Assembly: GCF_017834145.1 (NCBI RefSeq)
Contig: NZ_JAFIDA010000001.1
Span: 2,852,001-2,916,000, forward strand
Length of the DNA stretch: 64,000 bases
Direction: 5' to 3'
Source of the DNA: Leucobacter exalbidus
GTDB taxonomy: Bacteria > Actinomycetota > Actinomycetes > Actinomycetales > Microbacteriaceae
Within the stretch, counting starts at the first letter, position 1. Every line of letters begins with the position of its first letter. A program made the position numbers and the translations under genes. Below are positions 16,176-32,689 of this stretch, one piece after another. The notes below the pieces were generated by a model. The model was not told the DNA's origin, made no database searches, and was given only the letters and a program-made list of their open reading frames with translations.

Positions 16176-17942
16176 ATGAAGAACCTCGTGGTGCCCACGG
16201 CGAACCATGACGAACTCGTGGCATGGGCTCGCAGGCAACAGCGCCTCACCAGCTCAATCTCTGAGTTCGCGATCGCCATCACCTCGATCAGAGACAACTC
16301 AGAGGCGCTGCAGCAGCTGGTCGCGCGTGCGAGAACCCTGCTCGACGTCGACATGGCCTACATCAGCCTGAACGGCATCGACGGCTCGGGGTTCACCAGC
16401 ATCGTCGAAACCTCAGGGGTGTGGACCGAGGAATACCGCACCCTGCAGATGCCGCTGGGCAGCGGGGTACTCGGGCGAGTGGCACAGGCTGGCGGCCCGG
16501 TACAAACCTCTGACTACTCGGTCGACGACACCCTGATGCACGACGACGGCGTCGACCGCGTGGTCGAAGCCGAGGGCGTGCGTGCCATTCTGGGTGCCCC
16601 GATGCGCTCGGGCGGCGAGATCATTGGCGCACTGCTTGTCGCGAACCGCTTCGTACAACCGTTCACCGCCGAGCAGGTGTACGTCACACAAACCCTTGCG
16701 AACCTGGCCGCGGTCGCCATCGACAACATGAACCGGGTCGCCGACCTGAAACAGATCGCCCAAGAACTGCGTGAGGCCGAGGCCGCAGCCCAACGCGAGC
16801 TCGCCACCGAGCGACGGGTGACCGGCGCCGACGAAGCCCTGATGGATGCAATCGCGGGCGGCGGCGGGCTCGGTGCACTGCGCGACGGCATGACCCGGGC
16901 CATCGGCCGAACCGTGCAACTGGTGGACCTGACCGTGCGATACGACATGCGCGCGGCCGCCGCTGAAATCGGTGATGCCGAGCGGCCGCTATTCGCACTC
17001 TCGGCCCGCACGGGTACCCCGCAAACGCACACCCGCGAAGACGGCAGTAGCCACGCCATCATGGCGGCCACGCGCAACGACGAACTCGTGGGCGCAGTGA
17101 TGGTCGAGGGCGAGCTCTCACCCAGCGACGAGCAGGTGCTGCAGCGCTGCGCCCGGGTGCTGGGAGCATTTCTGAGCGCCCAAGACCGAGAGCGCGGCGA
17201 CCTCGCCAGGCGCCGCCGCGAGCTCATCGATCAGGTGCTCGCCCCGGCCCCCAGCGGGCTCAGCTTCGCGGTCGTGACCCAGCTGACCGAACTCGGCATC
17301 GAAGCGGGCAAACCGTTTCGCATTCTGGTGGTCGACGGCTCAGAATCCACCCTGCGCGACTTCTCCCACCGCCTCGAAGTCGACTTCGGGCCGTCGCTGC
17401 TGCACGCCAAGCTGGGGGAGCAGATCGTCGGGGTTGTACCCGAGGCGGCATTCACCCGCATTCAACACGAGCTCGAAGAGCGGGGCGCTCGCCGCTGGGG
17501 CGCAATGCTTGTGGGGCACTCACCCAAACTGCACATGTTTGAGGTGGTGCCCGACGAATTTGCGCTCGTGGAACGGGTGCTCGAAGCTGCGCGGCGATCG
17601 AACTTCTCGCAGACACTCGTGTCGCTGAAAACGTACGGCGCCATCGGGGCGTTCCTGTCAAAGGTGACGCTCGAACCGACGCGGCTCGGGGTGACCGAGG
17701 TGATCGGTGCTGTGCTTGATTACGACCGCGATCACGGCACCGCCCTCGCAGAGACCGCGGCCGCTTTTTTGCACGCGGGGCACTCGGTTGCGCAGGCCGC
17801 CCTCGACCTGCGCGTGCACGAGAACACGGTGCGACAGCGGCTCGACCGCGTCGGCACACTGCTCGGCGACGGCTGGGCCTACGGCCAGCGCGGCCTCGAC
17901 TGCCACATTATGCTCGCGGCCCATCGGTTGATCGGCCGGTGA
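16176..17942 (+). CDS. GAF-domain PucR/CdaR-type transcriptional regulator
   Basis: A 588-residue regulator. Residues ~40-185 form a GAF sensor domain (LLDVDMAYISLNG, ILGAPMRSGGEIIGALLVANR) and the middle resembles the CdaR GGDEF-like domain. The C-terminus carries the PucR helix-turn-helix, ALDLRVHENTVRQRLDRVG (about residues 538-556). It is transcribed away from the alcohol dehydrogenase operon and is its probable ligand-responsive activator. The ATG at 16176 has only a weak purine-rich site upstream. Regulators of this build commonly control catabolism of alcohols, ketones or purines. Confidence 0.9.
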   Translation: MKNLVVPTANHDELVAWARRQQRLTSSISEFAIAITSIRDNSEALQQLVARARTLLDVDMAYISLNGIDGSGFTSIVETSGVWTEEYRTLQMPLGSGVLGRVAQAGGPVQTSDYSVDDTLMHDDGVDRVVEAEGVRAILGAPMRSGGEIIGALLVANRFVQPFTAEQVYVTQTLANLAAVAIDNMNRVADLKQIAQELREAEAAAQRELATERRVTGADEALMDAIAGGGGLGALRDGMTRAIGRTVQLVDLTVRYDMRAAAAEIGDAERPLFALSARTGTPQTHTREDGSSHAIMAATRNDELVGAVMVEGELSPSDEQVLQRCARVLGAFLSAQDRERGDLARRRRELIDQVLAPAPSGLSFAVVTQLTELGIEAGKPFRILVVDGSESTLRDFSHRLEVDFGPSLLHAKLGEQIVGVVPEAAFTRIQHELEERGARRWGAMLVGHSPKLHMFEVVPDEFALVERVLEAARRSNFSQTLVSLKTYGAIGAFLSKVTLEPTRLGVTEVIGAVLDYDRDHGTALAETAAAFLHAGHSVAQAALDLRVHENTVRQRLDRVGTLLGDGWAYGQRGLDCHIMLAAHRLIGR

Positions 17943-19956: not shown

Positions 19957-20982
19957 CTACGCGACCTTCGGCTGCTGCTGGGTGATGCAGTGAATACCAC
20001 CACCGCGCGCGAACAGCGGGCGCGCATCGATGCCGATGACCTCGCGGCCGGGGTACACGTCGCGCAGCACGCCCAGGGCCTTGTCGTCTGCCGGATCACC
20101 GTAAGAACAGGCAAGCACCGCGCCGTTAATGACGACGTGGTTGATGTAGCTGTAGTCAACGAAACCCTCGTCGTCGCGCAGCGTCTCAGGGGCCGGGAGA
20201 TCGATGATGTCGAATCCTGCCGAGTTGAGACTGCGGTACTCTTCGGCGACCTCACGGTTCGTCTTCGCGATCTCGTGATCGGGGTGAGACTGCGAATCTT
20301 GACGGTGCATCAGCAGCACGTCGGGCGTCGCGAAGGCAGCGAGAATATCGGAGTGGCCGCGCGTGCCAAAGGTGTCGTGGTCGCGGGTGAGGCCGCGGGG
20401 GAGCCAGAGGGCGCTCGTCGTGCCGATCGTGCGGGCGAGCTCCTTCTCAACGTTCGCCTTGGTGCGGCCGGGGTTGCGACCAGGATCGAGCTGCACCGTC
20501 TCGGTGAGTACGACGCGACCGGTGCCATCGACCTGGATGCCGCCGCCCTCGTTCACCATCTTTGAATCAATGAGTTCGGCGCCGGCGGCCTCGGCCACGA
20601 TCTTGCCGATGTGCTCGTCCTTATCCCAGCTGGCCCAATCCTGGGCGCCCCAACCGTTGAACACAAAGTTCACGGCGCCGAGTTTGCCGTTCTCGTCAAG
20701 CACGAAGCTCGGGCCGATGTCGCGCATCCAAGCGTCGTTCAGGGGTGCGACGAGGCGATCAATCTGCTTCGACAGAAACTGCGAGGCGATGGCTTCGTCA
20801 CCCGGGTTGACGACCACTGTGACGTGCTCGTGCTCGCTCGCGGCGTTGGCGACGGCGGCCCAGGTGGTGCGGGCTTCGAGGACCTCGGCTTCGGTGTCAC
20901 CCAGGGTGTAGCCGCTGGTGGGCCAGGCGAGCCACAGGCGTTCTTGCTCGTGACCCTCGATGGGCATGCGCCACGTCGTCAT
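19957..20982 (-). CDS. aguA: Agmatine deiminase family protein
   Basis: A 341-residue guanidine-modifying enzyme. The diagnostic segments are NDAWMRDIGPSFV, NEGGGIQVDGTG, TRGHSDILAAF and the C-terminal GGGIHCITQQQP, which contains the catalytic cysteine. Agmatine deiminase converts agmatine to N-carbamoylputrescine plus ammonia. The start at 20982 is set by GAGGAG upstream. It lies beside, but on the opposite strand from, the gamma-glutamylation cluster starting at 21.6 kb, which raises a possible link to polyamine breakdown. No N-carbamoylputrescine amidase is nearby. Confidence 0.92.
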   Translation of the reverse strand: MTTWRMPIEGHEQERLWLAWPTSGYTLGDTEAEVLEARTTWAAVANAASEHEHVTVVVNPGDEAIASQFLSKQIDRLVAPLNDAWMRDIGPSFVLDENGKLGAVNFVFNGWGAQDWASWDKDEHIGKIVAEAAGAELIDSKMVNEGGGIQVDGTGRVVLTETVQLDPGRNPGRTKANVEKELARTIGTTSALWLPRGLTRDHDTFGTRGHSDILAAFATPDVLLMHRQDSQSHPDHEIAKTNREVAEEYRSLNSAGFDIIDLPAPETLRDDEGFVDYSYINHVVINGAVLACSYGDPADDKALGVLRDVYPGREVIGIDARPLFARGGGIHCITQQQPKVA

Positions 20983-21229
20983 GTTGCTCCTCGAAATCAT
21001 TGCCTGGCGGGGTGAGAGATGCAGGCGGTACAAGTTGAAATTATTTTCAGTCTACATTGTGTGGGCGAAATTGGCAGGGGGTTTCTGGGGAATTTTTGGG
21101 AGGTGGGTGTCTGCTCGCGAAGCTGAAGCGAGCGTGCTTCGTGGAACTGCTTCGATGGGGCGGGTTTTGACGAGTGTCCCCCAGATTCTCCGCAAAATTG
21201 CAGGACAATCGTCAACTTGCGCCCCCTTG

Positions 21230-21385
21230 ATGATGTGCAAACTGCTGATCAGTGATCTGTTCATCGGCCTGGTCAGGGCGACCGCCACTGCGACCGCCAA
21301 GGCCCTCGCCGAAGCACTCACCCGGGCAGCCCAGGCTCTTAACGAAGCACACCGCAACACCACGATCGAACCACGCGATATTTAA
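21230..21385 (+). CDS. Possible small ORF or gene remnant
   Basis: A 51-codon frame begins with tandem ATGs at 21230 and 21233 and ends at TAA 21385. Third positions are strongly G/C (a run of GCG ACC GCC AAG GCC CTC GCC codons), as in real genes here, and the product would be a short Ala-rich helix. There is no clear Shine-Dalgarno sequence and I recognise no family. It could be a small protein, or the decayed 3' end of a lost gene in a region that looks reworked. Confidence 0.3.
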   Translation: MMCKLLISDLFIGLVRATATATAKALAEALTRAAQALNEAHRNTTIEPRDI

Positions 21386-21516
21386 GCCGCACGTCAGCGC
21401 CGCCGAGGACCGAGGGACAAGTCGCTGTCATGGTGTGGCCCGAAACGTGTTTGGGGTGCGAACCCAGGAGAACGGGGTTTCGGAGTGGGGCGATGTCGAA
21501 GTCGATAGAAATTTAA

Positions 21517-21608
21517 CATTCATGAATGCATGAAATAAATGTTTCAAGTAGATTACAAAAACAAAAACTCTTTAAGTTACTTGCCTAATTAAACATCTAG
21601 ATCTAGAT
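21517..21608 (+). promoter_or_regulatory. AT-rich promoter/operator region of the permease gene
   Basis: This stretch contains a perfect 12-bp palindrome CATTCATGAATG (21517-21528), an inverted pair of TACTTG elements (CAAGTA at 21545-21550, TACTTG at 21578-21583) and a perfect 14-bp palindrome ATCTAGATCTAGAT (21595-21608). The element TACTTGCCTAATTAAACAT (21578-21596) recurs with 16 of 19 identities before the P450 gene. These are probably regulator-binding sites, with the GntR protein at 31.9 kb the leading candidate. Confidence 0.55.
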
Positions 21609-21675
21609 TGTAAGCATCCATCTTCATTGATTGATGGAATCCGCTAGCGGACGTACAAGGGAGTACCAAGCGACC

Positions 21676-23175
21676 ATGACACACCAAGATACTGTCGTCG
21701 AGCACGACGAAGACGCGGCACACCTCGCGTCTCTCGGCTATACGTACGACACCACGTTTAAACGTGAGATGAGCTTTTGGGGCAACGTCTCACTCGGGTT
21801 TACCTACCTTTCACCCATCGCCGGCGTCTACTCGATGTTCGCGATCTCCCTCGCCGAGGCCGGTCCGCCCATGGCTTGGGCCCTCATCATCGCGCTTGTT
21901 GGGCAGTTCTTGGTGGCGTTGGTCTTTGGCGAAGTAGTCTCCAACTATCCCGTGACCGGCGGAGTGTACCCGTGGTCACGCCGTCTTTGGGGGCGCAAGT
22001 GGGCGTGGATGAATGGCTGGATCTACGTTGTAGCGCTTGTCGGCACCATTGCTGCTGTCGCGTACGGGGCCGCCCCGTTTATCGCTTCAGTGTTCGGCGG
22101 CACGCTCGACGCCGGGGCTACCGTTCTCATCGCGCTCGGTACCCTGGTGATCGCCACGCTGCTGAACTTCTCTGGCACTAAGGTACTGAGCCTCGCGGCT
22201 ACCGTCGGTCTCATCGCTGAGATGATCGGCGCCGTCGTGATCGGCGGCTACCTGCTGATCTTCAACCGCCACCACGACTTCTCCGTGCTGTTCGACAACC
22301 AGGGCATCGGTAACGACGCCCCCGGTGGCTACCTGGGCGCGTTCGCAGCTGCCGCTCTCATCGGCATGTTTGCTTACTACGGGTTTGAAGCCAACGGCGA
22401 CGTCGCTGAAGAGATCAAGAACCCCAGTGCTCGGGTACCGAAGGCCATGCGCCTGACGATGTACATCGGCGGTTTTGCTGCCAACCTGCTGGCCTTCTCC
22501 CTGGTGCTTGCCGTTCCCGATTTCCAAGCCGTTGCCAGCGGTGAAGTGGTCGACCCGATCGGCGATATTCTTCACAATGCGTTCGGCCCGATCTTCCCCG
22601 TAGTGATGTTTGTTATCGTCATCGCCTTCCTCTCTTGCATCACGAGTCTTCAAGCAGCCGCAAGCCGCTTGATCTACTCAATGGGCCGTGACGGCTTCCT
22701 CCCCGGATCGAAGTTTCTCGCCGAGTTCAACGAAAAGCGCCACGTTCCCAACAACGCTCTCCTCATTGCTGCCTTTTTCCCGGCTGCAGTAGTGGTGCTA
22801 TCTCTGCTCCTTGAAGATGCGCTTACTGCCATGGTTGGGTTTGGCACGGTCGGAATTTACATGGGCTTCCAGATGGTGGTACTTGCCGCTCTTCGCGCAC
22901 GCATTCTTGGCTGGAAGCCAGCAGGTAAGTTCAAACTGGGCGCCTGGGCCTACCCGGTCAACATCATGGCTCTGATCTGGGGCCTTGCGGCTATCGGGAA
23001 TATTCTTTGGCCGCGCCCCACTGGTGGTGGCTGGGCCGAGGACTATCTGCTGATCATGACCACCGTCGGTGTGATCGGCGTGGGCTGGATCTACATGCTC
23101 GTCTCCAAGGCCTACACGCGAGGCGACGCTCCGTCGGCTGATGCCAGCGGTCCGATTAAGACCGTCGTTCGCTAA
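21676..23175 (+). CDS. APC-superfamily amino acid/amine permease
   Basis: A 499-residue membrane protein with about 12 hydrophobic segments. MSFWGNVSLGFTYLSPIAGVYSMF is the characteristic first helix of amino-acid/choline transporters, and the GANGDVAEEIKNPSARVPKAM-like loop (with FEANGDVAEEIKNP) is the family's conserved loop. The start at 21676 has AAGGGAG 15 bases upstream in a leader that is shared with the P450 gene. It opens the gamma-glutamylation cluster and probably imports the amine or amino acid substrate. Codon choice is somewhat less GC3-biased than in the housekeeping genes, suggesting acquisition. Confidence 0.9.
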   Translation: MTHQDTVVEHDEDAAHLASLGYTYDTTFKREMSFWGNVSLGFTYLSPIAGVYSMFAISLAEAGPPMAWALIIALVGQFLVALVFGEVVSNYPVTGGVYPWSRRLWGRKWAWMNGWIYVVALVGTIAAVAYGAAPFIASVFGGTLDAGATVLIALGTLVIATLLNFSGTKVLSLAATVGLIAEMIGAVVIGGYLLIFNRHHDFSVLFDNQGIGNDAPGGYLGAFAAAALIGMFAYYGFEANGDVAEEIKNPSARVPKAMRLTMYIGGFAANLLAFSLVLAVPDFQAVASGEVVDPIGDILHNAFGPIFPVVMFVIVIAFLSCITSLQAAASRLIYSMGRDGFLPGSKFLAEFNEKRHVPNNALLIAAFFPAAVVVLSLLLEDALTAMVGFGTVGIYMGFQMVVLAALRARILGWKPAGKFKLGAWAYPVNIMALIWGLAAIGNILWPRPTGGGWAEDYLLIMTTVGVIGVGWIYMLVSKAYTRGDAPSADASGPIKTVVR

Positions 23176-23188
23176 AGAAGATCTATAC

Positions 23189-23236
23189 GGCGCAGCTTCG
23201 CCCCCGTCTCAACCGAGATGGGGGCGAAGCTGCGCC
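23189..23236 (+). terminator. Large hairpin between permease and first amidotransferase-like gene
   Basis: A 22-bp stem with a single G-T pair (arms 23189-23210 and 23215-23236) and an AACC loop begins 13 bases after the permease stop. No T-run follows. It may terminate, or differentially stabilise, the permease transcript relative to the next gene. Confidence 0.75.
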
Positions 23237-23297
23237 CCACCTCTTGAAAAACCACGCCTGCGCACAAGCCAGGCCTTCCGCTTGAAAGGACGTACCG

Positions 23298-24080
23298 ATG
23301 ACTGACCTGGTGGTCGATGCTGCACCATTTCTCTCTCACGCCGACGAAAACCCGAACGGGCCACTCATCCCGATGGTGGTTTCGTTGACCTTCCCCGGGA
23401 TGAACCAGTCTGCGCACGATCTTCAAGACGAGTTCACCCGCATCGCCTTTGACGCGGTTCGCGCAGCAGGCGGGCGCCCTCGGCTGGTCGATGCAGCTGG
23501 CCCGGCGCTACAGCCTGCGGCTGGCGTGTTCGAAGACGCCGCGGCAATCGTCATTTTGGGTGGCGGAGATGTCGACGGCGCCTGCTACGGCTACGACGGC
23601 CCAGCTCCCGCCAACGAGTACGGTGTGGACCGTCGTGCCGACGACTATTGCATCAACCTGATCCAAGATGCGGTCTCACGTGACTTGCCCACACTCGCGA
23701 TTTGTCGCGGCTCGCAGCTGCTCAATGTCGCTTTCGGGGGCACGCTGATTCCTGACATCGCCGAGTGGCCGATGCATCGCGGCACCGGATCGCCCTTGTT
23801 TGTCGACGAAGACGTAATCCTCGAGGAAGATTCAAAGATCGCTCGCATCATGGGGCGTACAGCAGTCACGGTGCGCAACGGGCATCATCAGGCGGTCGCC
23901 GATGTCGCGCCTGCCTTGCGGGCCACCGCGCACGCTCACGACGGTATTGTCGAAGGCACCGAACATCGGGATGCCAGCTGGGTAGTAGGAATCCAGTGGC
24001 ACCCCGAAGAGCCCGAAGCAAACCTTGCAGACCGCGCCAGTATCTTCTCCGCGCTTGTTGAACAGGCCTCCAAGGCCTAA
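23298..24080 (+). CDS. Gamma-glutamyl-gamma-aminobutyrate hydrolase-like (PuuD family) protein
   Basis: A 260-residue class I glutamine amidotransferase-fold hydrolase of the PuuD/peptidase C26 type. LAICRGSQLLNVAFGGT carries the nucleophile Cys136, and VVGIQWHPEEPEA supplies the catalytic His and Glu. ILGGGDVDGACYG resembles the GGxDVxPxxYG loop of PuuD-type enzymes. In E. coli this family removes glutamate from gamma-glutamyl-GABA. GAAAGGA lies upstream of the ATG. It follows the permease by about 120 bases and is one of two PuuD-like hydrolases in the cluster, suggesting different gamma-glutamyl intermediates. Confidence 0.9.
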   Translation: MTDLVVDAAPFLSHADENPNGPLIPMVVSLTFPGMNQSAHDLQDEFTRIAFDAVRAAGGRPRLVDAAGPALQPAAGVFEDAAAIVILGGGDVDGACYGYDGPAPANEYGVDRRADDYCINLIQDAVSRDLPTLAICRGSQLLNVAFGGTLIPDIAEWPMHRGTGSPLFVDEDVILEEDSKIARIMGRTAVTVRNGHHQAVADVAPALRATAHAHDGIVEGTEHRDASWVVGIQWHPEEPEANLADRASIFSALVEQASKA

Positions 24081-24111
24081 CTCAGTCGAAGTTGCGGTGA
24101 TAAGCCGCACA

Positions 24112-24155
24112 AACACTTCAGCTCCCGGTTACCAGTAACAGGGAGCTGAAGTGTT
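24112..24155. terminator. Bidirectional hairpin between hydrolase and flavodoxin genes
   Basis: A perfect 15-bp stem, AACACTTCAGCTCCC (24112-24126) with GGGAGCTGAAGTGTT (24141-24155), has a small GTTAC/GTAAC stem in the loop. It sits between convergent genes and probably serves both. Confidence 0.82.
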
Positions 24156-24167
24156 GAAGCGGTGTAG

Positions 24168-24626
24168 TTATACAGCGGCCGAAGCTGCCTCGAGTACTCC
24201 GTCGATCCATTCGATTGCGACATCGCTGCCCAGGTCCCATGATGAAGCGTCGTGGCGACCATAGTCACCCACGCGTACGCCGCCCTGAGCCGTGAAACGG
24301 CGGTCAATGTGCTCGCTGCCCTGGCTGTAGGTCTCCTCGTAGAACGTGTCGCCGAGCCCAAACATGGCGTACTGCAGGCCAGTGAGATCAGGCAGTGCAG
24401 CGTCGAATGCCTCAACAAACGGGATGGCGGTGTTCGGGAGGTCACCCTCGCCGTGAGTGGAGCAGACCACAATGGTGAATCGCTCGGCGGTGAGCGATGC
24501 GGGGTCAAAATTCTGCAGGTCGTGCACTTCCACGTCATCGTGGCCAGCACGTAGCTTCTCGCCGAGATCTTCTGCGATGAGCTCGGAGTTGCCGGATTCG
24601 GTGCCGTAGAGAACAGTGAACTTCAT
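24168..24626 (-). CDS. Flavodoxin
   Basis: A 152-residue flavodoxin-fold protein. The FMN phosphate loop is YGTESGNSELIAEDL (residues ~6-20), followed by STHGEGDLPNTA and YAMFGLGDTFYEETY, which contact the isoalloxazine ring. It is an electron carrier rather than an enzyme. The start at 24626 is set by AAAGGA upstream. It is encoded 23 bases after a ferredoxin/adrenodoxin-reductase-type gene and near a P450, so the likely chain is NADPH to reductase to flavodoxin to P450. This recalls the flavodoxin-fed cineole P450cin system. No ferredoxin gene is present. Confidence 0.9.
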   Translation of the reverse strand: MKFTVLYGTESGNSELIAEDLGEKLRAGHDDVEVHDLQNFDPASLTAERFTIVVCSTHGEGDLPNTAIPFVEAFDAALPDLTGLQYAMFGLGDTFYEETYSQGSEHIDRRFTAQGGVRVGDYGRHDASSWDLGSDVAIEWIDGVLEAASAAV

Positions 24627-24649
24627 GGCTGAGGTCCTTTCGTGTGGGG

Positions 24650-25957
24650 TCATGCTCGTGTGGTGGTGGCCGTACCGCGAGCGATCGCGGCCATATGATG
24701 ATGATCTGAAAGTTTGCGTCGCACGCGCCCGGCGGGAGCATTCTCACGCTCATGGGCATCGAGAACGAGCCAATCGGTGTAGTCGACAGCTTGGGCCTGA
24801 ACCGAAGTGGATAGGCCAGAGAAACCGTGCTTGGTAGTCGAAGGCACGATGGAACCGGCACTCAAATCTGTGGCAAGTTCTTCGGCGACGGACTTGGCGC
24901 AGGCACGATTCTCGGGAATTGCTCCGTGCGGGCCTCGCTTGGCCCACCCCGTGCGGTACAGACCAGGTTCGACGCGGCCGGATTCGCTGCTGGACGCAAT
25001 CGCGTGCAGTAGCGGCGCGGGGTGATCCGCGGCGTCAAAACCGATTGCAGTGATGACGGAAGTGGCTGGCACCGTGACTGAGCCGTGGGCTGAAGATAGC
25101 TCAATTCCCGTAACCTGTGCGGCGTTATCCGCGGCACTGATGATGCGCTGCGGAGTCGCACCGAAGCGCAAGGTTACGCGGGGGCCCGGCTGCGTGCCCC
25201 GCGCGTCAGATACGAGATCTGTCAACGCGGCGACGCGAGCGGCCGCCGTGCGGTCGAGCTCGAGGTTCGTGTCGGGGGCGATTGCGTCGGCGGAAATGTA
25301 GGTCGCCCGTGCGAGCGCCGCCAGCTCCTTCCACATTTGCGGATCGCCTTTTGATCCTGCGGCATCTGATCGACTGACGAGCGTAATGTGCTCGGGTGGG
25401 GCCGTGAGATACGGTTGCAGCGCGGAGTCTGCAACGTCGCTGGCCTCGTAATCGTCTGCGCCCTTGACGAGGAAACGCAGTAGATCCAGCGCCACGTTAC
25501 CGGCGCCCACGATAACGATATCGGTGCCCAGTGCGGGGAGGGTTGCCTGCTCATCGGGGTGCGCGTTGAGCGTGCGGGTAATGGTGCCGGCGCCGATGAC
25601 TCCGGGAAGATTTGCGCCGGGGATCCCTAAAGTGCGGTCGGCGCTAAGGCCTGTTGCGATGACCACCGCGTCAAAGTTGGCGCGCAGATCTTCGAGGGTG
25701 AGATCGCGCCCCACCTCGATATTGCCTGCAAATCGGACTGCTTCTGACTGAAACAACCGCTCGAACTGGCGCGTAATGGCCTTCGTGTGCTGGTGGTCGG
25801 CAGCGACACCGTAGCGAATCAACCCGAAAGGTGACACTAGCCGGTCGAACAGCGTCACGGTGCTTTCAGGAACCGACCGCAACAACGACTGCGCAAAATA
25901 GCAGCCAGCCGGGCCGCTCCCAACAATGGCGACATGGGGGGTCGGGGTAGTTGACAT
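24650..25957 (-). CDS. Adrenodoxin/ferredoxin-NADP+ reductase-type flavoprotein
   Basis: A 435-residue FAD/NADPH reductase of the adrenodoxin reductase/FprA group. Key segments are VAIVGSGPAGCYFAQSLL (FAD site), SPFGLIRYGVAADHQHTK (the group's hallmark), IVIVGAGNVALDLLRFL (NADPH site) and the late RTGWAKRGPHGAIPENRACA. Such enzymes feed electrons to ferredoxin or flavodoxin. AAAGGAG precedes the ATG. It is transcribed divergently from the P450 gene across a 231-bp AT-rich region and is followed by the flavodoxin gene, forming the redox half of the P450 system. Confidence 0.93.
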   Translation of the reverse strand: MSTTPTPHVAIVGSGPAGCYFAQSLLRSVPESTVTLFDRLVSPFGLIRYGVAADHQHTKAITRQFERLFQSEAVRFAGNIEVGRDLTLEDLRANFDAVVIATGLSADRTLGIPGANLPGVIGAGTITRTLNAHPDEQATLPALGTDIVIVGAGNVALDLLRFLVKGADDYEASDVADSALQPYLTAPPEHITLVSRSDAAGSKGDPQMWKELAALARATYISADAIAPDTNLELDRTAAARVAALTDLVSDARGTQPGPRVTLRFGATPQRIISAADNAAQVTGIELSSAHGSVTVPATSVITAIGFDAADHPAPLLHAIASSSESGRVEPGLYRTGWAKRGPHGAIPENRACAKSVAEELATDLSAGSIVPSTTKHGFSGLSTSVQAQAVDYTDWLVLDAHERENAPAGRVRRKLSDHHHMAAIARGTATTTRA

Positions 25958-26042
25958 CTCTCACAGCTCCTTTGCGTGAAATCCGGGTGCACCGTCGCGC
26001 CACGGTTTGATGAGATTAGCTCCAGTGTAACCGTAAAGATTC

Positions 26043-26118
26043 TACTTGTGAATGATTTATTCTTGTTTGTCCTCAATGAATCTGCAAGTTTGTTTTGGGT
26101 ACTTGCGAAATAAAACAT
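26043..26118. promoter_or_regulatory. Shared AT-rich promoter/operator region between reductase and P450 genes
   Basis: Two TACTTG elements lie at 26043-26048 and 26100-26105. The second belongs to TACTTGCGAAATAAAACAT (26100-26118), matching 16 of 19 bases of the element at 21578 before the permease. In both promoters the motif is followed 75-77 bases later by ACAAGGGAGTAC, the leader carrying the Shine-Dalgarno sequence. This points to co-regulation of the permease, the P450 and perhaps the divergent reductase-flavodoxin pair. Confidence 0.6.
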
Positions 26119-26188
26119 TCACGGATAGTTTATTTGCTAACGGGCCGCTCGATGGATGAGCGGATACGAGTTCGACAAGGGAGTACGA

Positions 26189-27409
26189 ATGACCGCACAG
26201 ACGACGCAAGACGCAGCGCCGTACCTCGATATCGCGTCGCCTGAGTTCGCGATGAACTCAGAAGCGGTGCGCGAGGCTCGCGAGCGCAGCTGGTACGCAA
26301 AGACCAATTACGGTTATGGCGTGCTGCGCTACAAGGAAGTCACTGAGCTGCTGAAGCACCCCAGTCTGAACCAGGGCAGCGCAAAGTGGCCCGACCACCA
26401 TGGTGTGCACTCAGGCGTGTTTCACGAATGGTGGGCCAAGAACCTGCTCGTGCTCGAGGGGGAAGAACATCACCGCATTCGTCGACTACTGAACCCGGCT
26501 TTCTCACCGACGGTCGCCCGCCGCTTGGTGCCAGAGTTTGAAACTGTTGCTCAGGAACTCATCGACCAGATGAAGCAGAAGCTTGACGCGGGAGAGCAGA
26601 TCGAATTCGTTGCAGACTTTGCTGAGCCTTTCGCCACTCGCGCGCTGTGCGCCATGATGGGGTTGCCTCACGAGCACTGGGAGTTCATTGCCTCTCGCGC
26701 GAACACGGTAGGTCTGGCGCTGAGCGTTTCGGTTAAGGACGATATCGAGCAGGTGGATGAGGCCGTACAGGAACTGTATGACTTCGTCGCGAAGCTCATC
26801 ACCGAGCGTCGCGAGACCCCGGGCGACGATGTTATTTCGCGCCTCGTGCAGTTCTCAGAATCAGGCGACAAACTCAGCGATGCCGAGCTGCGCAACGCTA
26901 TTGTGCTGATGCTGTTCGGCGGTATGGATACGACACGTAACCAGCTCGGGCTCATCCTGCAAACCTTCATGCGCAACCCTGATCAGTGGGAGCTGCTGGC
27001 TTCTGACACGGCAAAGTACACGAAGCCGGCGCTTGAAGAGGGGCTGCGCGTCAACCCCACCACGCGCTGGGTTACCCGCGAAGCCAACGAAGACTTCGAG
27101 TTCAACGGACTCGCTATCGAGAAGGGAACCACGGTGCACCTCTTCACGATGTCGAGCGGCACCGACCCGGCGGCCTTCCCCGACCCCGACATCAACATTG
27201 ATGCCGACAGCCGGCTGCAGCACCACACCTTTGGTGGCGGCGTGCACCACTGCCTCGGCCACTACATCGCTCGTGCAGACATGAGCGTGGCAATCCCGAT
27301 GCTTGCCGAGAACTTCACCAACATCACCTGCCCCGGCGGCGATGAATGGCTGCCTGACTCGGGTAACCACGGCCCGATCCGGTTGCCGCTCACTCTTACC
27401 GTGCGCTAG
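26189..27409 (+). CDS. Cytochrome P450 monooxygenase
   Basis: A 406-residue soluble bacterial P450. It has the C-helix LLVLEGEEHHRIRRLLNPAF, the I-helix oxygen-activation motif FGGMDTTRNQ with the acid-alcohol pair, the ExxR motif in EEGLRVNPTTRW, and the haem loop FGGGVHHCLG with thiolate Cys355. The start at 26189 follows AAGGGAG. Between the reductase/flavodoxin pair and a glutamine-synthetase-like ligase, it probably oxidises a gamma-glutamylated amine or the free amine. Mycobacterial P450s for morpholine and piperidine lie near glutamine-synthetase-like genes, a useful precedent. I cannot assign the CYP family. Confidence 0.95.
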   Translation: MTAQTTQDAAPYLDIASPEFAMNSEAVREARERSWYAKTNYGYGVLRYKEVTELLKHPSLNQGSAKWPDHHGVHSGVFHEWWAKNLLVLEGEEHHRIRRLLNPAFSPTVARRLVPEFETVAQELIDQMKQKLDAGEQIEFVADFAEPFATRALCAMMGLPHEHWEFIASRANTVGLALSVSVKDDIEQVDEAVQELYDFVAKLITERRETPGDDVISRLVQFSESGDKLSDAELRNAIVLMLFGGMDTTRNQLGLILQTFMRNPDQWELLASDTAKYTKPALEEGLRVNPTTRWVTREANEDFEFNGLAIEKGTTVHLFTMSSGTDPAAFPDPDINIDADSRLQHHTFGGGVHHCLGHYIARADMSVAIPMLAENFTNITCPGGDEWLPDSGNHGPIRLPLTLTVR

Positions 27410-27415
27410 CGCCTA

Positions 27416-27451
27416 GGGATCTTGGTCCGCAAAGCCGCAGGCCAAGATCCC
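27416..27451 (+). other. Intercistronic hairpin between P450 and ligase genes
   Basis: Perfect arms GGGATCTTGG (27416-27425) and CCAAGATCCC (27442-27451) flank a 16-base loop, 7 bases after the P450 stop. With no T-run it may attenuate rather than fully terminate, or stabilise the P450 message. Confidence 0.6.
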
Positions 27452-27494
27452 ACTTCGAATTACAGCAGTACCTTCCAACGATGAAAGGAACACC

Positions 27495-28982
27495 ATGCCG
27501 AACCTCATTGCAGACAGCCTGCCCAATCTTGAGATTCCTGATTATCTGACCGAGCAGTCGGACTACGCCACCGGCGGCCGTTTTGGCGCTGCATTGCGCG
27601 AGATTCTTGCCGATACCACCGCATTTGCCCGCCACCAGGAAGCCAACCTCCAGCCCGAGGTTGTTGAAGCGATGGGCAAGAAGATCCGTGATAACGGCGT
27701 AAAGTACATTTACTTCATGCTGCCGACCCTGGGCGCTCGCACCGTGGCTAAGGTGGTGCCTGCAGAGCACTACGAACGCATGCTGCGCAAGGGCATTGCC
27801 TTTCACCGCACCGCTCTCACCGACCTGCAGACGAGCCGCGAGGGCGAGCTCATCGGCGGCGGCGTAGACGCCCACGAATTCTGGGGTCTGCCCGACCCCG
27901 AGACCTTCCAGGTGCTGCCGTGGGACACCGAAGTCGGCCGTGTATTCTGCACCGCGTACGACCCGCCTCACCTGGGCAAAGATGGCGGCCGCATGATTCC
28001 GCTTGATACTCGTGCACTGTTCAAGGCAGCCCATAAGGGCTTCACTGAGCGCACCGGGCTCGAGCTCCGTTCGGGCCTTGAGCCCGAGATGACCTGGACC
28101 GGCCCCGGCATCGAAGCAATCTCGAAGGAAGATCAGAGCCCCGCATACCAGGTCGAGAACCTTGAGAAGATGCGCCCGGTGTACAAGAAGCTGTACGCCT
28201 ACGCACAGGCCCTCGACTTCGACATGATCCAGGGCGACTACGAAGACGCCGGCCAGATCGAGTTGAACTGGGAGTACGACCGCGCCGATCTCACGGCCGA
28301 GCGTATGACTACCTACCGTCAGATTTGTAAGCAGGTTGCACGCGAGCTGGGGCTGCAGGCCAGCTTCATGCCCAAGCCGTACAACGGCAAGATGGGCAAC
28401 GGCTGCCACCACAACCTGAGCCTGTGGCGCGTGAGTGACGGCGTCAACGTGGTCGAGGACGGCCGCGTCGAACTGCACGCGACCGACACCGCACGCCACG
28501 CTATCGCCGGCATGCTGCTGCACACCCCGGGCTCAATGGTGGTGATGGCCTCGACCGTCAACTCCTACAAGCGCTTCTGGGATGCCGGCCAGTTCGCGCC
28601 CTCAGGTGCTGACTGGGGCCTCGATACTCGAGGCGTTGCCATCCGGATCTCAGCCAACGGGCGCATGGAATACCGTCTGCCCGACGCGAGCGTCAACCCG
28701 TACCTGTCGCACCTGTTCTTGCTCGCTGCCATCGAGCACGGGCTCGAAGCACAGCTCGATCCGGGCGATCCGGGACAGCCGAGCGCTCTGCTCGATAACG
28801 TCGTTGTGCCCAACACCCTGGGCACCGCGATCGAAGCTTTTGAGCAAGATGAATACCTCATGGGGGCGATCCCCGAAGAGCTGAGCCGCATCTATGTGCA
28901 GCTGAAGCGCGACGAATGGGCACGCTACTGCGGCCAAATCACGCAGTGGGAGTTTGATCAGTACTGGGAGGCAATTCCGTGA
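27495..28982 (+). CDS. Glutamine-synthetase-like gamma-glutamyl-amine ligase
   Basis: A 495-residue GS-superfamily ligase. IQGDYEDAGQIELNWEYD is the metal-binding strand and FMPKPYNGKMGNGCHHNLSL the glutamate-binding loop. YRLPDASVNPYLSHLFLLAA matches the conserved C-terminal segment of non-canonical GS proteins. The N-terminal DNGVKYIYFMLPTLGAR is the beta-grasp part. GS-like enzymes such as PuuA, IpuC and gamma-glutamylanilide synthase use ATP to join glutamate to amines other than ammonia. The absence of nitrogen-assimilation neighbours and the presence of PuuD-like hydrolases favour that role. It overlaps the next gene by 4 bases. Confidence 0.9.
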   Translation: MPNLIADSLPNLEIPDYLTEQSDYATGGRFGAALREILADTTAFARHQEANLQPEVVEAMGKKIRDNGVKYIYFMLPTLGARTVAKVVPAEHYERMLRKGIAFHRTALTDLQTSREGELIGGGVDAHEFWGLPDPETFQVLPWDTEVGRVFCTAYDPPHLGKDGGRMIPLDTRALFKAAHKGFTERTGLELRSGLEPEMTWTGPGIEAISKEDQSPAYQVENLEKMRPVYKKLYAYAQALDFDMIQGDYEDAGQIELNWEYDRADLTAERMTTYRQICKQVARELGLQASFMPKPYNGKMGNGCHHNLSLWRVSDGVNVVEDGRVELHATDTARHAIAGMLLHTPGSMVVMASTVNSYKRFWDAGQFAPSGADWGLDTRGVAIRISANGRMEYRLPDASVNPYLSHLFLLAAIEHGLEAQLDPGDPGQPSALLDNVVVPNTLGTAIEAFEQDEYLMGAIPEELSRIYVQLKRDEWARYCGQITQWEFDQYWEAIP

Positions 28983-29698
28983 GCACCGAAACAACCGTTC
29001 AGACCATTCGCCTGGCGTGCATCGATTCAGAGGCGCTGCCGCTGTTTGCGAAGAGCGTCGATGGGAAGACCCGTGAAGGGTACGAACCCGAAGCTGCAGC
29101 GCTCGTCTTCGGGCGCCTCGGCGCCATCATCGAGTGGGTCATGGTTCCTTGGGAAGACATGATCCCCACCGTGCGCAGCGGTGATGCCGACGCCGTGTGG
29201 TGCGGCCAAGGCATGACCGAGGAGCGCGCGTCGCTCGTCGACTTCACGACGCCCTACGCGGTGTTCAACGAGTCATTGATCGTGCGCGCCGCTGATCCGG
29301 CGCGTTCAGTTGAGCAGCTCGCCGGGTACCGCATCGGTGCGATCACGAACTCGACGAATATGAAGCTGGCCGAGACGTTCCCCGACGTTGAGCTCGTGAG
29401 CTTCGGCGCAAGCGATGACGTGTTTGGCGACATGATTGAAGCCACACGGTCGGGCGCGATCGACGGATTCGTAGACGACGATGTCGTCATGATTCCGCTC
29501 GCCGATGAAGACCCCGACTTCGCGTTGGCGTTCAACGTGATGACGGGAAATCGCTGGGGGATCGGTGTCGCTCCTGGCAATGATGAACTGCGTGCAGCCA
29601 TCAACGGTGCACTGCAGGAGGTCATTGCAGACGGCTCGCTCGAGGCCGTATGGACCAAGTGGATGCCGCTGCTGCCGTTTCCGCTGCAGGCCGCATAA
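28979..29698 (+). CDS. Leaderless solute-binding-protein family 3 domain protein
   Basis: A 239-residue protein made almost entirely of one periplasmic-binding-protein (SBP_bac_3) fold: LACIDSEALPLFAKSVDGKT..GYEPEAAALVF, GDADAVWCGQGMTEERASLVDFTTPYA and YRIGAITNSTNMKLAETFP. It has no signal peptide or lipobox, and its GTG start is locked by a 4-base overlap with the ligase gene, so it should stay in the cytoplasm. No ABC permease or ATPase is nearby. It could be an intracellular sensor or carrier, or an enzyme on this fold such as a dehydratase. Its exact job is unknown. Confidence 0.83.
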   Translation: MSTETTVQTIRLACIDSEALPLFAKSVDGKTREGYEPEAAALVFGRLGAIIEWVMVPWEDMIPTVRSGDADAVWCGQGMTEERASLVDFTTPYAVFNESLIVRAADPARSVEQLAGYRIGAITNSTNMKLAETFPDVELVSFGASDDVFGDMIEATRSGAIDGFVDDDVVMIPLADEDPDFALAFNVMTGNRWGIGVAPGNDELRAAINGALQEVIADGSLEAVWTKWMPLLPFPLQAA

Positions 29699-30417
29699 TG
29701 CACGAATCAGGATTGGCCCCGCGCATCGGGGTCACGGGAATGCTGTCGAACCAGATCCACGGTTTGCGGTTCGAGGGGAGCGCAGTCGCGGCTGCCGTGC
29801 TGCGCTCCGTCGTGCAGGCGGGCGGTGAGCCCCTCACGCTATTTGCTGAGGGGGCATCGCCCGCCGAGGCCCGGCTTCGAGGGCTCGACGGGCTCCTCGT
29901 ACCGGGCGGGTACGACATTGATCCGGCACGCTATGGGCAGGAAGCTGACCCGAGCACCTGCCCGGCAGACTTCGCCGTACAAGATCAGTTTGAGGCCGAC
30001 ATGATCGCCGCCGCGATCAAGCTCGGCATTCCGGTACTCGCGATCTGCCGCGGGTTTCAGCTTCTGAACGTGGAGCACGGCGGCACGATGGTGCAGGATC
30101 TCGCCGCAGATAGTGTGCACCGCAACTCGGTGCACGAGGTTCTGCTTGAGCCCGAATCGGCGTTGGCCGAAGCGGTCGGTACGACAACCCTGCCAGTGTC
30201 TTCATACCACCACCAGGCCGTTGACCAGATTGGGGAGGGCTTACGGGTTGTGGGCCGCGCCCCCGACGGCATCGTCGAGGCGCTCGAACACGACACTGCA
30301 GAGCTCATCGCGGTGCAGTGGCATCCCGAAGACACTGCAGCAACAGAGCCGCAGCAGCATGCGATTTTCACCTGGTTTATTGAGCGGGCGCGCGTCTTTG
30401 GCGGAGCAACGGTATGA
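29698..30417 (+). CDS. Second PuuD-like gamma-glutamyl hydrolase
   Basis: A 239-residue class I amidotransferase-fold hydrolase. GLLVPGGYDIDPARYGQE is the PuuD-type GGxDxxPxxYG loop, VLAICRGFQLLNVEHGG holds Cys117, SSYHHQAV the conserved substrate-side loop, and IAVQWHPEDTA the His-Glu pair. Its ATG overlaps the previous TAA (TAATG) and its end overlaps the next ATG by 4 bases, so it is translationally coupled on both sides. It probably frees glutamate and the oxidised amine product after the P450 step, while the paralogue at 23.3 kb may act elsewhere in the route. Confidence 0.9.
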   Translation: MHESGLAPRIGVTGMLSNQIHGLRFEGSAVAAAVLRSVVQAGGEPLTLFAEGASPAEARLRGLDGLLVPGGYDIDPARYGQEADPSTCPADFAVQDQFEADMIAAAIKLGIPVLAICRGFQLLNVEHGGTMVQDLAADSVHRNSVHEVLLEPESALAEAVGTTTLPVSSYHHQAVDQIGEGLRVVGRAPDGIVEALEHDTAELIAVQWHPEDTAATEPQQHAIFTWFIERARVFGGATV

Positions 30418-31172
30418 GTGGCGCGCGTGTGCTGGTGGTCGAACACCAGGGCAACGCCGGGGTTGGGTTGGCGGGTCAACGGCTCGCCAACCTCGGCCTC
30501 GAGCTGCACACAGTCGGCCCGGCAACGGGGCGGCCAGTGCCCGAGTCTCTCGACGGATTCGACGCGCTCGTGGTGCTCGGTGGCTCGATGGGCCCGACCG
30601 AGGATGAAGCCGCACCCTGGCTGCCGGCCACCCGCTCGCTCCTGCAACAGAGCGTTGAGCAGGAGCTACCGACCCTGGGCATTTGTTTAGGTGCACAGTT
30701 GCTGGCCACCGCGACGGGCGGCCGCGTGCGCGAGATGCCCGCGGGACCCGAAGTCGGACTGAACGATGTAGCCTTTCACCGAGACATCTCTGCAGATCCA
30801 GTCTTTGGGGATCTCGCGGGTGCAACGGTGGCCGCTGTGCAGTGGCACTGGCTCGAGGCAGAAACGCTACCGGCCGATACGCAGCTTCTCGCTTCAAGCC
30901 CGGCCTGCGCCAACCAAGCATTTCGGGTGGGTACACGGGCCTGGGGCGTGCAGTTTCACCCAGAAGCGCTCACTCAAACAGCGCGAGGCTGGGCTGATGA
31001 GGATCATCAGAATCTCACGAAGCTAGGGCTCGACGACGACGCACTGGTCGGCGCGATTCAAGATGCGTCACCCGAACTCACCCGCATTTGGGGCGCAGTA
31101 GCCGACCGCTTCGCTGCGGTGGTTACTGAGTCTGTAGCTCGAGAAACCGAAGGTCCCGGATCCGGATCCTAG
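30414..31172 (+). CDS. Type 1 glutamine amidotransferase (GMP-synthase-like) protein
   Basis: A 252-residue class I GATase of the stand-alone GMP-synthase-like type. It shows VVLGGSMGPTEDEAAPWL, LGICLGAQLLATATGG with Cys91, and WGVQFHPEALT for the His-Glu pair. Homologues include hydrolases of gamma-glutamyl amides in amine-degradation clusters, the role I infer here. It is the last gene of the ligase operon, overlapping the preceding stop by 4 bases. Its TAG overlaps the convergent Cache-like gene's stop by 4 bases. Three amidotransferase-fold proteins in one cluster is unusual. Confidence 0.88.
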   Translation: MSGARVLVVEHQGNAGVGLAGQRLANLGLELHTVGPATGRPVPESLDGFDALVVLGGSMGPTEDEAAPWLPATRSLLQQSVEQELPTLGICLGAQLLATATGGRVREMPAGPEVGLNDVAFHRDISADPVFGDLAGATVAAVQWHWLEAETLPADTQLLASSPACANQAFRVGTRAWGVQFHPEALTQTARGWADEDHQNLTKLGLDDDALVGAIQDASPELTRIWGAVADRFAAVVTESVARETEGPGSGS

Positions 31173-31894
31173 AGCGACGCTTCGCCGGGAAGCGCGTACA
31201 ACAGCTGCAGGCCCATGGCCTGGGGGCTGAGCGCTTCCCTGGCGTAGCCGGGGAGCGAATCCGGCACATAATCGCCGGGCAGGAATTGGGCACTCGTGCC
31301 AAACAACACGTTTCCGTGGTGGCTGAGGAGCACAAGCTCTTGTTCGCGCTGCTGGAGCAACGGGAGTAACGCCCTCTCGAGGTCTTCTAGCTGAATATCA
31401 TTGCCGACCGCGCCTAAGCGGTTGCCATTAACCACCGCCGGTACGGTGAGCGTCAACACGTACGACTCCACACCGAGGTAGTCGATGTATGGGCCCACGA
31501 GTGCAGATTCGCCCTGTTCGAACGAGCGCACAAACCATTCGTGTTGCTCGTAATCGTAGTACCGGTCAGCGCCAGGAACGACGCCGAATGAGTACCGAGC
31601 GAAGCGGGCGTCGTCTTCGCGCACCCACCACTCCAGGTGACCGTTCTCCGTGCCCAGCGCTGAATGCGCAAAGATCAGGCCGCAACCATCGATGTGTTCA
31701 TTGTTCAGCAGGAACTGGGCCGCAACTGTCTTGAGGCGTCGCCTTGCTGACTCGCTGAGGTCAAGGATCCCGTTGTCATCAAGGTGCATCTTGGCAAGCA
31801 TTTCAACGGCGAGCGCGTCGATGGCGAGCAAACGCTCGGCGAACCAGGTCTCGAGCCGCTCACGAACGGCCGGCAACGTGATGAGATCGGTCAT
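31169..31894 (-). CDS. Soluble Cache (PDC)-like sensor domain protein
   Basis: A 241-residue protein without signal peptide or membrane helix. The middle and C-terminal parts look like a PDC/Cache ligand-binding domain: YYDYEQHEWFVRSFEQGESALVGPYID is the typical Y...WF......W..PY.D pattern, and VLTLTVPAVVNGNRLGAVGNDI the following strand. Cache domains are usually extracellular sensors, so a free cytosolic one is unusual. Its ATG overlaps the GntR stop by 4 bases, meaning that the two are co-translated. This suggests a ligand-sensing partner of that regulator, which is an inference from context. Confidence 0.78.
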   Translation of the reverse strand: MTDLITLPAVRERLETWFAERLLAIDALAVEMLAKMHLDDNGILDLSESARRRLKTVAAQFLLNNEHIDGCGLIFAHSALGTENGHLEWWVREDDARFARYSFGVVPGADRYYDYEQHEWFVRSFEQGESALVGPYIDYLGVESYVLTLTVPAVVNGNRLGAVGNDIQLEDLERALLPLLQQREQELVLLSHHGNVLFGTSAQFLPGDYVPDSLPGYAREALSPQAMGLQLLYALPGEASL

Positions 31895-32673
31895 GCGGTC
31901 AGCTCCTGTTCCGACTCGTTCGCGGCGAGGGAATGAGCTCGATTCAACGCGAGTTTGCCCGCGATAATGAGGCGCATATTGTCGTGTACGTGTTTGACTG
32001 CGAGCCGCTGAGCTTCTTCAGCCTGACGCTGCTCAATCACGAGCGCGAGGGCCACATGCTCAGAAAACGCGTTCTGTACTGAGGCCCGACAAATATCTTC
32101 ACACCACAAAAACGGTGCGAGTTCTGACTGCAAACGTCGTTCGGACGCGAGCAGGCGGGGGGACTGGCTTAGCACGGCCACCTCGAAGTGAAACCGGCTG
32201 TCTGCCATTGCACGGTCCCGCACACTGCGGGCCTCACGTGCCTGAAACGCAAACTCCGCGAGGCGGGTGCGCATTTGTGGGGGAGTGCGTTCAGCAGCAA
32301 GCCGTGCAGCCATGCCAGACACGGCGGCTTGCTCATCAAAAAAGTCCCGGAGTGCGACGAGGCTGGTATTGCGGAGGGATTCCGTCAGCATGTCGGACGT
32401 GGGAAATGGGGCCTCAACGATGAACGTGCCACCGTTGCGACCCCGTCGGGTTTCAACCACTCCTTGCGCGCGCAGCGTTGCAAGGGCCTTGCGTAGCGTG
32501 GCCACCGCAACACCGAACTGGCTCGCCAGTTCGGCTTCGGTGGGCAGCCGTTCACCCACAGTCAACATGCCAAGCGAGATCGCCGAAACGATGCGCCGGG
32601 CGATTCCGCTGACCTGAGGGCCAGCGGAATCGACCTCGCTAGGAACGTGGCTGCCTAACGGCTGCTGCTGCAC
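31891..32673 (-). CDS. GntR-family transcriptional regulator (FadR/FCD type)
   Basis: A 260-residue regulator. The winged helix at residues ~22-90 includes RLPTEAELASQFGVAVATLR and ALATLRAQGVVETRRGRNGG. The helical remainder, with its RLAEFAFQAREARSVRDRAM and LALVIEQRQAEEAQRLAVKH segments, fits an FCD-like effector domain. It is co-transcribed with the Cache-like gene and sits at the right end of the amine cluster, so it probably controls the cluster. The TACTTG-containing promoter regions at 21.5 and 26.1 kb are candidate targets. It begins 16 bases after the kgd stop on the same strand. Confidence 0.9.
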   Translation of the reverse strand: MQQQPLGSHVPSEVDSAGPQVSGIARRIVSAISLGMLTVGERLPTEAELASQFGVAVATLRKALATLRAQGVVETRRGRNGGTFIVEAPFPTSDMLTESLRNTSLVALRDFFDEQAAVSGMAARLAAERTPPQMRTRLAEFAFQAREARSVRDRAMADSRFHFEVAVLSQSPRLLASERRLQSELAPFLWCEDICRASVQNAFSEHVALALVIEQRQAEEAQRLAVKHVHDNMRLIIAGKLALNRAHSLAANESEQELTA

Positions 32674-32689
32674 TACGCTTCGTCTCGAA

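Follow-up and report, generated by a model that had tools for sequence, protein, structure and literature searches.

Among the closest described counterparts of the locus examined here is the PipR/PipA system, whose regulator PipR is reportedly a repressor. MSMEG_6700, a FadR-type GntR protein of Mycobacterium smegmatis, has been tied to piperidine and pyrrolidine metabolism, and the excerpted text of that report describes no operator for it (PMC2018728). PipA is a cytochrome P450 according to titles in the reference lists of PMC9477822 and PMC2018728, and an excerpt of PMC9477822 places the BioI and PipA-like P450s of Gulosibacter molinativorax at about 53% and 52% identity to PipA and MorA. 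The Ipu pathway for isopropylamine, described from Pseudomonas KIE171 and Arthrobacter aurescens TC1, comprises a permease, a gamma-glutamylamide synthetase, a P450 with electron donors, and an amidotransferase-type hydrolase; the part of PMC6776027 available mentions neither a regulator nor an operator. Atu1419 of Agrobacterium fabrum, a tetrameric FCD-type GntR repressor of a hydroxycinnamate regulon, is described in an excerpt of PMC7797058 as having a promoter region with a pair of palindromes, one of them between -10 and -35, with DNA looping visualized by electron microscopy. Most sites of FadR-subfamily GntR proteins follow TKGT-N2/3-ACMA, with NanR and BioR as exceptions (PMC4494728, in excerpt). 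Here we analyze a stretch of 64,000 nucleotides from Leucobacter exalbidus (the window; NZ_JAFIDA010000001.1, positions 2,852,001 to 2,916,000), in which a 19-base-pair (bp) element recurs in two promoters, one upstream of a permease gene and one upstream of a P450 gene. From its sequence, the shared region is likely to be a conserved module of promoter and operator in a small, closed regulon for amine uptake and oxidation, at which a GntR dimer would act as repressor.

The two 19-mers begin at window positions 21578 and 26100 and agree at 16 of 19 positions, as the initial annotation had noted from the letters alone. Its accompanying measurements were reproduced by direct sequence checks: copies of the 12-mer ACAAGGGAGTAC begin at 21655 and 26175, 77 and 75 bases past the element starts, and both regions are AT-rich islands, with GC fractions of 0.32 and 0.39 versus 0.644 for the window. 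Two such AT-rich regions might resemble each other by chance, but none of 500 pairs of dinucleotide-preserving shuffles of both islands reached 16/19 (the best ungapped 19-mer scored 15, in 12/500), and conservation of the element in 29 genomes refutes an accidental likeness, to which we assign practically no credence. The similarity of the two promoters is real. A degenerate pattern covering both 19-mers, with as many as 3 mismatches allowed, occurs twice in the 3.18-Mb genome, both times at this locus (reversed control, 1), and ACAAGGGAGTAC and ACRARGGAGTAC each match twice in the genome, both times at these promoters, with one reversed control giving 1. Orthologous promoters, named beforehand as the place where the proposal could fail, were examined and conserve the element.

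The element and its surroundings resolve into the following features, with positions given within the window.

21581-21609, plus strand: permease core promoter, with -35 TTGCCT (21581-21586), a 17-bp spacer, and -10 TAGATT (21604-21609)
26103-26131, plus strand: P450 core promoter, with -35 TTGCGA (26103-26108), a 17-bp spacer, and -10 TAGTTT (26126-26131)
21589-21614, unstranded: putative permease proximal operator, with left half TTAAACATCTA within the spacer and a weak right half across the -10 box
26111-26136, unstranded: putative P450 proximal operator, with left half TAAAACATTCA within the spacer and a weak right half across the -10 box
21512-21537, unstranded: permease distal 26-bp dyad, TTTAACATTCA-TGAA-TGCATGAAATA
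26034-26059, unstranded: P450 distal 26-bp dyad, TAAAGATTCTA-CTTG-TGAATGATTTA, upstream of the P450 gene and across a divergent -35 box

Aligned promoters from 29 P450 and 23 permease upstream regions (excluding locus L061, whose P450 is 46% identical) share a core of CTTGC, 17 bp, and TAnnnT. All 23 permease promoters have TTG and TAnnTT, spaced by 17 bp (18 in four), and TTG and TAnnnT are present in 29/29 P450 promoters. Read as sequence, CTTGC is the -35 box of a predicted sigma70-type core (-35 TTGCnn, 17 bp, -10 TAnnnT). The spacer holds a further conserved stretch, TAAAWCATYYA, found with at most 1 mismatch in 22/23 permease promoters (8 exact) and 27/29 P450 promoters (21 exact). In the P450 set, the columns of this half-site hold 1.1-2.0 bits each, similar to the -35 and -10 boxes, and the columns separating the distal site from the core mostly hold 0.0-0.4 bits. 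The sequence TAAAACATTCA within the 17-bp spacer is, by its pattern, one half of a dyad of about 26 bp, TAAAWCATTCA-N4-TGAATGWTTTA.

Both the permease and the P450 promoter have a fuller dyad some 76 bp further upstream, and half of the core element reappears, inverted, upstream of the P450 gene. Outside Leucobacter, eight loci from Microbacteriaceae and unclassified Micrococcales or Actinomycetota have divergent permease and P450 genes, and in seven of them a 26-bp palindrome, TAAA-N18-TTTA, lies between the two. The half-site matrix built from these seven is independent of Leucobacter in sequence, not in choice, the loci having been selected after viewing. Applied to Leucobacter upstream regions, it finds a dyad for which no more than 5/100 shuffles are as good in 25/28 P450 and 17/23 permease cases (L036 was too short to enter the distal-site counts); at the permease distal dyad of the window, the figure is 0/100. 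Relative to CTTGC, the start of the best distal dyad falls at -67 or -68 in 22/28 P450 and 17/23 permease upstream regions. Among 37 other loci scanned, five have a full dyad upon the permease core promoter itself (Paeniglutamicibacter L092, L094, L095, and L096, and Arthrobacter L098, where the right half is weaker), revealing what the half-site belongs to. Dyads also score in L087, L091, L118, and L139, and the remaining 28 loci have none.

These results redraw the 19-bp element. It is real and conserved, but in its original form it joins a -35 box to one half of a longer dyad, and it overlooks both the fuller dyad upstream and a probable third, divergent promoter. The second TACTTG copy that had been assigned to each region is present (CAAGTA at 21545, TACTTG at 26043) and is incidental, its spacer bases having been misread as sites that relatives do not conserve. 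As a core motif TACTTG was rejected: the TA before CTTGC is unconserved, the copy at 26043 is the centre of the distal P450 dyad, and the copy at 21545 falls in an unconserved stretch. One could also ask whether the 19-bp similarity is merely that of a conserved strong sigma70 promoter lacking any operator, as CTTGC and TAnnnT are canonical boxes 17 bp apart. Against this, the spacer positions are conserved as strongly as the boxes, the distal dyads occupy near-constant places, and the identical half-site forms a full palindrome in other organisms, leaving a promoter without operator a very improbable explanation.

The module is confined to the gene cluster. A P450 match at E <= 0.001 occurs in 40 of 54 genus genomes, and an orthologue (73-87% identical) is present in 28 genomes besides this one, or 29/54. 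The core profile R1, which was built from these promoters and matches them by construction, gives two strong matches in each of the 29 cluster genomes and 0 in the other 25. A distal-site profile matches in 28 of the 29 (the contig of the 29th is too short) and has no strong match elsewhere. The second R1 match lies on another contig in G029, G041, G043, and G046, with the permease leader alongside in three and not confirmed in G043. Six loci (L036, L039, L040, L041, L049, and L056) contribute no permease upstream region to the 23-row set; R1 gives a second match in their genomes, and the permease leader was found beside that match in five and not seen for G043. Under stricter filters, R1 leaves four weak matches, three of which are inverted distal halves and one of which has an E value of 0.91; the profile leftovers are at chance level (G053:C5, E 0.91; G042:C7, 0.66; G032, 0.73). 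No further promoter rose above chance with the core or distal profile in the 54 genomes under these filters, and on that basis the regulon looks closed. The proposal that the two promoters form one regulon holds up in this core-profile search, being both conserved and closed. An agmatine-deiminase-like gene (19957-20982) that adjoins the cluster here and in many relatives was rejected as a member, having no promoter-profile match. Permease promoters of Streptomyces and Actinomadura were likewise set aside as relatives; they look alike by eye, but R1 does not reach them. In Leucobacter OH1287 (L085), R1 matches at the permease only, and a ACRARGGAGTAC-type leader is missing.

The candidate binder and its partner are encoded downstream of the P450 operon.

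31891-32673, minus strand: GntR-family regulator with FCD domain, candidate binder (PF00392, 1.9e-15; PF07729, 4.6e-11)
31169-31894, minus strand: Cache (PDC sensor) domain protein, partner gene of the regulator (MCP-like_PDC_1, 9e-8, above cut-off; dCache_1 below)

Both the winged helix-turn-helix domain (PF00392) and the FCD domain (PF07729) of the GntR protein score above cut-offs, defining it as a member of the FadR/FCD subfamily; the Cache-domain protein has no match to a DNA-binding or enzyme domain. The DNA-binding part of the GntR protein is largely conserved, and one helix within it is presumably the one that reads DNA. A GntR orthologue (60-80% identical, E <= 1e-40) is present in exactly the same 29/54 genomes as the P450 and in 0/25 of the others, GntR being the one regulator for which co-occurrence with the cluster was tested. 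On a tree of 52 genomes (G012 and G041 lie outside it), a history of 10 gains or losses is required for the cluster, of which at least 8 fall on branches with good support, and GntR changes in step with the cluster in 8/8 independent contrasts (sign test, p 0.0078). In most cluster-bearing Leucobacter, as at 31891-36403 here, the GntR-Cache pair directly follows a 2-oxoglutarate dehydrogenase gene, even where the P450 cluster lies elsewhere.

That gene position is one reason to consider that the dyads bind another regulator, encoded elsewhere, with GntR having a different target or being associated by linkage only. The GntR gene stands beside neither promoter, the dyad differs from the usual GntR consensus, and a PucR-type regulator (GAF + HTH_30) is encoded at 16176-17942, a few kilobases ahead of the cluster. 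We nevertheless regard a different binder as doubtful. GntR tracks the cluster even in G051 and G012, where the two are >1 Mb apart, yet both present; in G013 and G042 it is found with the cluster and apart from the 2-oxoglutarate dehydrogenase gene; and the cluster genes scanned encode no other DNA-binding domain. The GntR (FCD) protein is a strong candidate, and on sequence grounds the best one, for binding the dyads as a repressor. The initial annotation had named it as the natural candidate to bind both promoters and called it adjacent to them: co-occurrence with the cluster, without exception across the 54 genomes, favors the assignment, but the adjacency was mistaken.

The association extends beyond the core set, where 43 of 56 loci have a GntR homologue close to the P450, 41 of these 43 also having the Cache gene. 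The GntR-bearing loci include Gulosibacter, Brevibacterium, Arthrobacter, Nesterenkonia, Streptomyces, Actinomadura, and mycobacteria. On plasmid pGKT2 of Gordonia KTR9 (L173, 7482-14493), FCD, cache, and P450 genes stand in a row. These three precede genes for a FAD-dependent oxidoreductase and a second, longer P450, which we take to be the xplB-xplA explosive-degradation pair.

The distal P450 dyad also bears on a third transcription unit.

26024-26052, minus strand: probable divergent reductase-flavodoxin promoter, with -10 TACACT (26024-26029), 17 bp, and -35 TTCACA (26047-26052)

Most of the 28 orthologues compared carry AGTGTA or ATTGTA, as read on the plus strand, and its distance from the dyad is fixed. 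Both divergent boxes (TTCACA and TACACT) are kept in most relatives, and the dyad covers TTCACA, from which the distal P450 dyad probably controls the reductase-flavodoxin pair too.

For the repression that we favor, an FCD-type GntR protein would most likely bind the 26-bp dyads as a dimer and, once bound, block polymerase at all three promoters (permease, P450, and divergent reductase-flavodoxin); an amine or amine derivative would then release it. Two bound dimers may cooperate, perhaps via a short loop. Across the P450 set, the distance from the strong distal half to the proximal half is 61-63 bases in 23/28 cases and 71-74 bases in 5/28, with none intermediate (twelve of these distances were entered by hand, and for L058 the second-best site was taken), a suggestive shift of about one helical turn. 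Cooperation of bound dimers is suggested by the near-constant distance between the two sites, which differs by some ten bases in a few relatives. The dyads could conversely be activator sites, for GntR or another protein, given that the centre of the distal dyad falls, by our inference, near -91 from the presumed transcription start, where activators also bind. The placing of both sites favors occlusion, the proximal one lying between the -35 and -10 boxes and overlapping them and the distal one covering the divergent -35 box, and activation is accordingly the improbable alternative.

Several observations weigh against a GntR-bound dyad repressing this regulon. At the proximal site, the right half is weak (judged by eye), and the permease half (CATCTA) differs from the P450 half. 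The 4-base centre is top-scoring in only 9/28 P450 and 9/23 permease rows, a centre of 5 being best in 13 P450 rows and a centre of 8 in 8 permease rows; 6/23 permease rows, including the GC-rich L042 and L044, have no dyad better than 5/100 shuffles. The ten-base shift requires only 2 changes on the tree, and one of its rows (L058) uses a second-best site. R1 finds no match in 46/56 loci beyond the core set, among them loci of Gulosibacter and Brevibacterium whose P450s are 68-71% identical. No GntR gene is nearby in 13/56; eight of these are short contigs or cut loci and five are full-length (L111, L119, L125, L128, and L130). Locus L091 has the dyad and no GntR gene on its 13-kb contig. In most genomes, GntR and the cluster may have been gained or lost as a single block. 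Finally, the dyad has no GT-N2/3-AC core and so departs from the TKGT-N2/3-ACMA operator form.

Downstream of the core promoters, the transcripts share conserved leaders and, at two of them, possible hairpins in the 5'-untranslated region (5'-UTR).

21653-21666, plus strand: permease ribosome-site leader GTACAAGGGAGTAC, with GTACRARGGAGTAC in 23/23 orthologues read
26171-26191, plus strand: P450 ribosome-site leader TTCGACAAGGGAGTACGAATG, conserved, with 26/29 rows aligned
25959-25980, minus strand: reductase ribosome-site leader, with conserved GCRAAGGAGC
21617-21638, plus strand: possible permease 5'-UTR hairpin, not significant in this genome alone (32/100 shuffles)
26145-26163, plus strand: possible P450 5'-UTR hairpin, CCGCTC-N7-GAGCGG (6/100 shuffles as long)

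A C-RARGGA-G core is common to the permease, P450, and reductase leaders, which are more conserved than most other leaders of the cluster. The 16 columns flanking the ribosome site hold 19.3 bits for the permease, 26.8 for the P450, and 14.5 for the reductase, the latter two inflated by start-codon bases inside those columns. Operon-internal genes give 4.2-7.3 bits, except for the solute-binding gene at 16.1, whose upstream region overlaps coding sequence. L049, L059, and L060 were left out of the P450 leader alignment, as was the mis-anchored L056 from the reductase set. The sequence GTACRARGGAGTAC stands beside the permease in 28/29 cluster genomes; as a genus-wide leader of other genes it was rejected, with 3 other matches in the 54 genomes (G011, G021, and G024), approximately the chance level (our estimate is 0.1 per genome). 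The leader ACRARGGAGTAC was found in 0/56 loci beyond the core set.

Stem-loops just past the presumed transcription starts recur in relatives with differing sequences. The longest stems average 7.0 bp in 23 permease orthologues versus 5.5 bp when shuffled (the highest of 100 shuffle means was 6.35), and 5.7 bp in 29 P450 orthologues versus 4.9 bp (highest of 100, 5.4). Single-sequence folds suggested that a conserved hairpin presents the ribosome site in its loop, an arrangement that was set aside, as on the reductase leader 68.2% of positions pair versus 65.5% in shuffles (55/500 as high) and the covariation score was equaled in 152/500 shuffles. Regulation of the leaders by CsrA was also discarded: CsrA was found in 0/54 genomes at E <= 0.001, and the same search was positive in 3/14 control genomes. 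Matches to Rfam elements within 20900-33000 amounted to six weak ones, all below gathering scores. A second layer, in which an RNA-binding factor or small RNA would read the conserved leaders and the permease and P450 hairpins and thereby co-set translation, seems unlikely to us.

The remaining genes of the cluster are as follows.

21676-23175, plus strand: APC-type amino-acid/amine permease (PF13520, 7e-49)
23298-24080, plus strand: PuuD-like class I gamma-glutamyl hydrolase (C26) (PF07722, 4e-41)
24168-24653, minus strand: flavodoxin (PF00258, 3e-25; start 24626 used in comparisons)
24650-25957, minus strand: FAD/NAD(P) reductase (PF07992, 4.5e-15)
26189-27409, plus strand: cytochrome P450 (PF00067)
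27495-28982, plus strand: glutamine-synthetase-like enzyme (PF00120, 3e-66)
28979-29698, plus strand: family-3 solute-binding-type protein with no evident signal peptide (PF00497, 4e-25; start set by eye)
29698-30417, plus strand: second PuuD-like gamma-glutamyl hydrolase (PF07722, 5e-51; longer frame 29650-30417)
30414-31172, plus strand: class I glutamine-amidotransferase-like protein (PF00117, 1.5e-18)

The permease and first hydrolase form a pair; the P450 operon encodes the P450, glutamine-synthetase-like enzyme, solute-binding-type protein, PuuD-like hydrolase, and amidotransferase; and the reductase-flavodoxin genes are divergent. This order is largely kept in relatives, with exceptions in L040 and L041 (permease pair several kilobases off), L043, L046, and L055 (GntR-Cache elsewhere), and L058 and L060 (no amidotransferase). 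From its position, the reductase (24650-25957) is the probable electron donor of the P450. The glutamine-synthetase-like enzyme, which models of type III and gamma-glutamylputrescine synthetases match below their cut-offs, is probably a gamma-glutamylamide synthetase. Relatives retain the solute-binding-type protein, without an evident signal peptide, inside the P450 operon, where it might act in the cytoplasm as a sensor or an enzyme. The P450 shows 68-71% identity to P450s of Gulosibacter sediminis and G. macacae and, by an indirect link through other Gulosibacter P450s, may be of the PipA/MorA kind. Overall, the cluster resembles a gamma-glutamylated amine pathway with a P450 and would serve amine uptake and oxidation, probably via gamma-glutamylated intermediates.

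For the regulator encoded by the GntR-Cache pair of this amine P450 cluster, the dyads supply a candidate operator that can be put to the test, both in Leucobacter and in certain loci of Arthrobacter, Paeniglutamicibacter, and uncultured Microbacteriaceae; searches of open-licence PMC papers turned up no operator for such regulators. The GntR-Cache pair accompanies the P450 in further genera, in which the present models found no operator. The near-constant geometry of the two sites could be used to probe short-range cooperation by FCD regulators.

Relative to the systems outlined above, the locus shares its gene content with the Ipu pathway as excerpted in PMC6776027: a permease, a glutamine-synthetase-like enzyme, a P450 with redox partners, and a gamma-glutamyl hydrolase are present in one cluster. 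With PipR/PipA it has in common a FadR-type GntR regulator and a P450, the GntR gene here sharing a cluster with the P450, but it differs in its flavodoxin-reductase pair, its two or three promoters, its gamma-glutamylamide-synthetase-like enzyme, and its hydrolases. The arrangement of sites resembles what the excerpt of PMC7797058 gives for Atu1419, namely an FCD-type GntR protein with two palindromes per promoter region, one between -10 and -35; in that account, however, the palindrome is the 10-bp ATGTATACAT and the sites are 190 bp apart. Like the canonical FadR-subfamily sites in the excerpt of PMC4494728, the dyad is an AT-rich palindrome suited to a GntR-type dimer, but it is longer and without a GT-N2/3-AC core, a difference that bears on the site and not on the family of the protein. 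If GntR binds it, the dyad would join the exceptions to the consensus that GntR sites usually follow.

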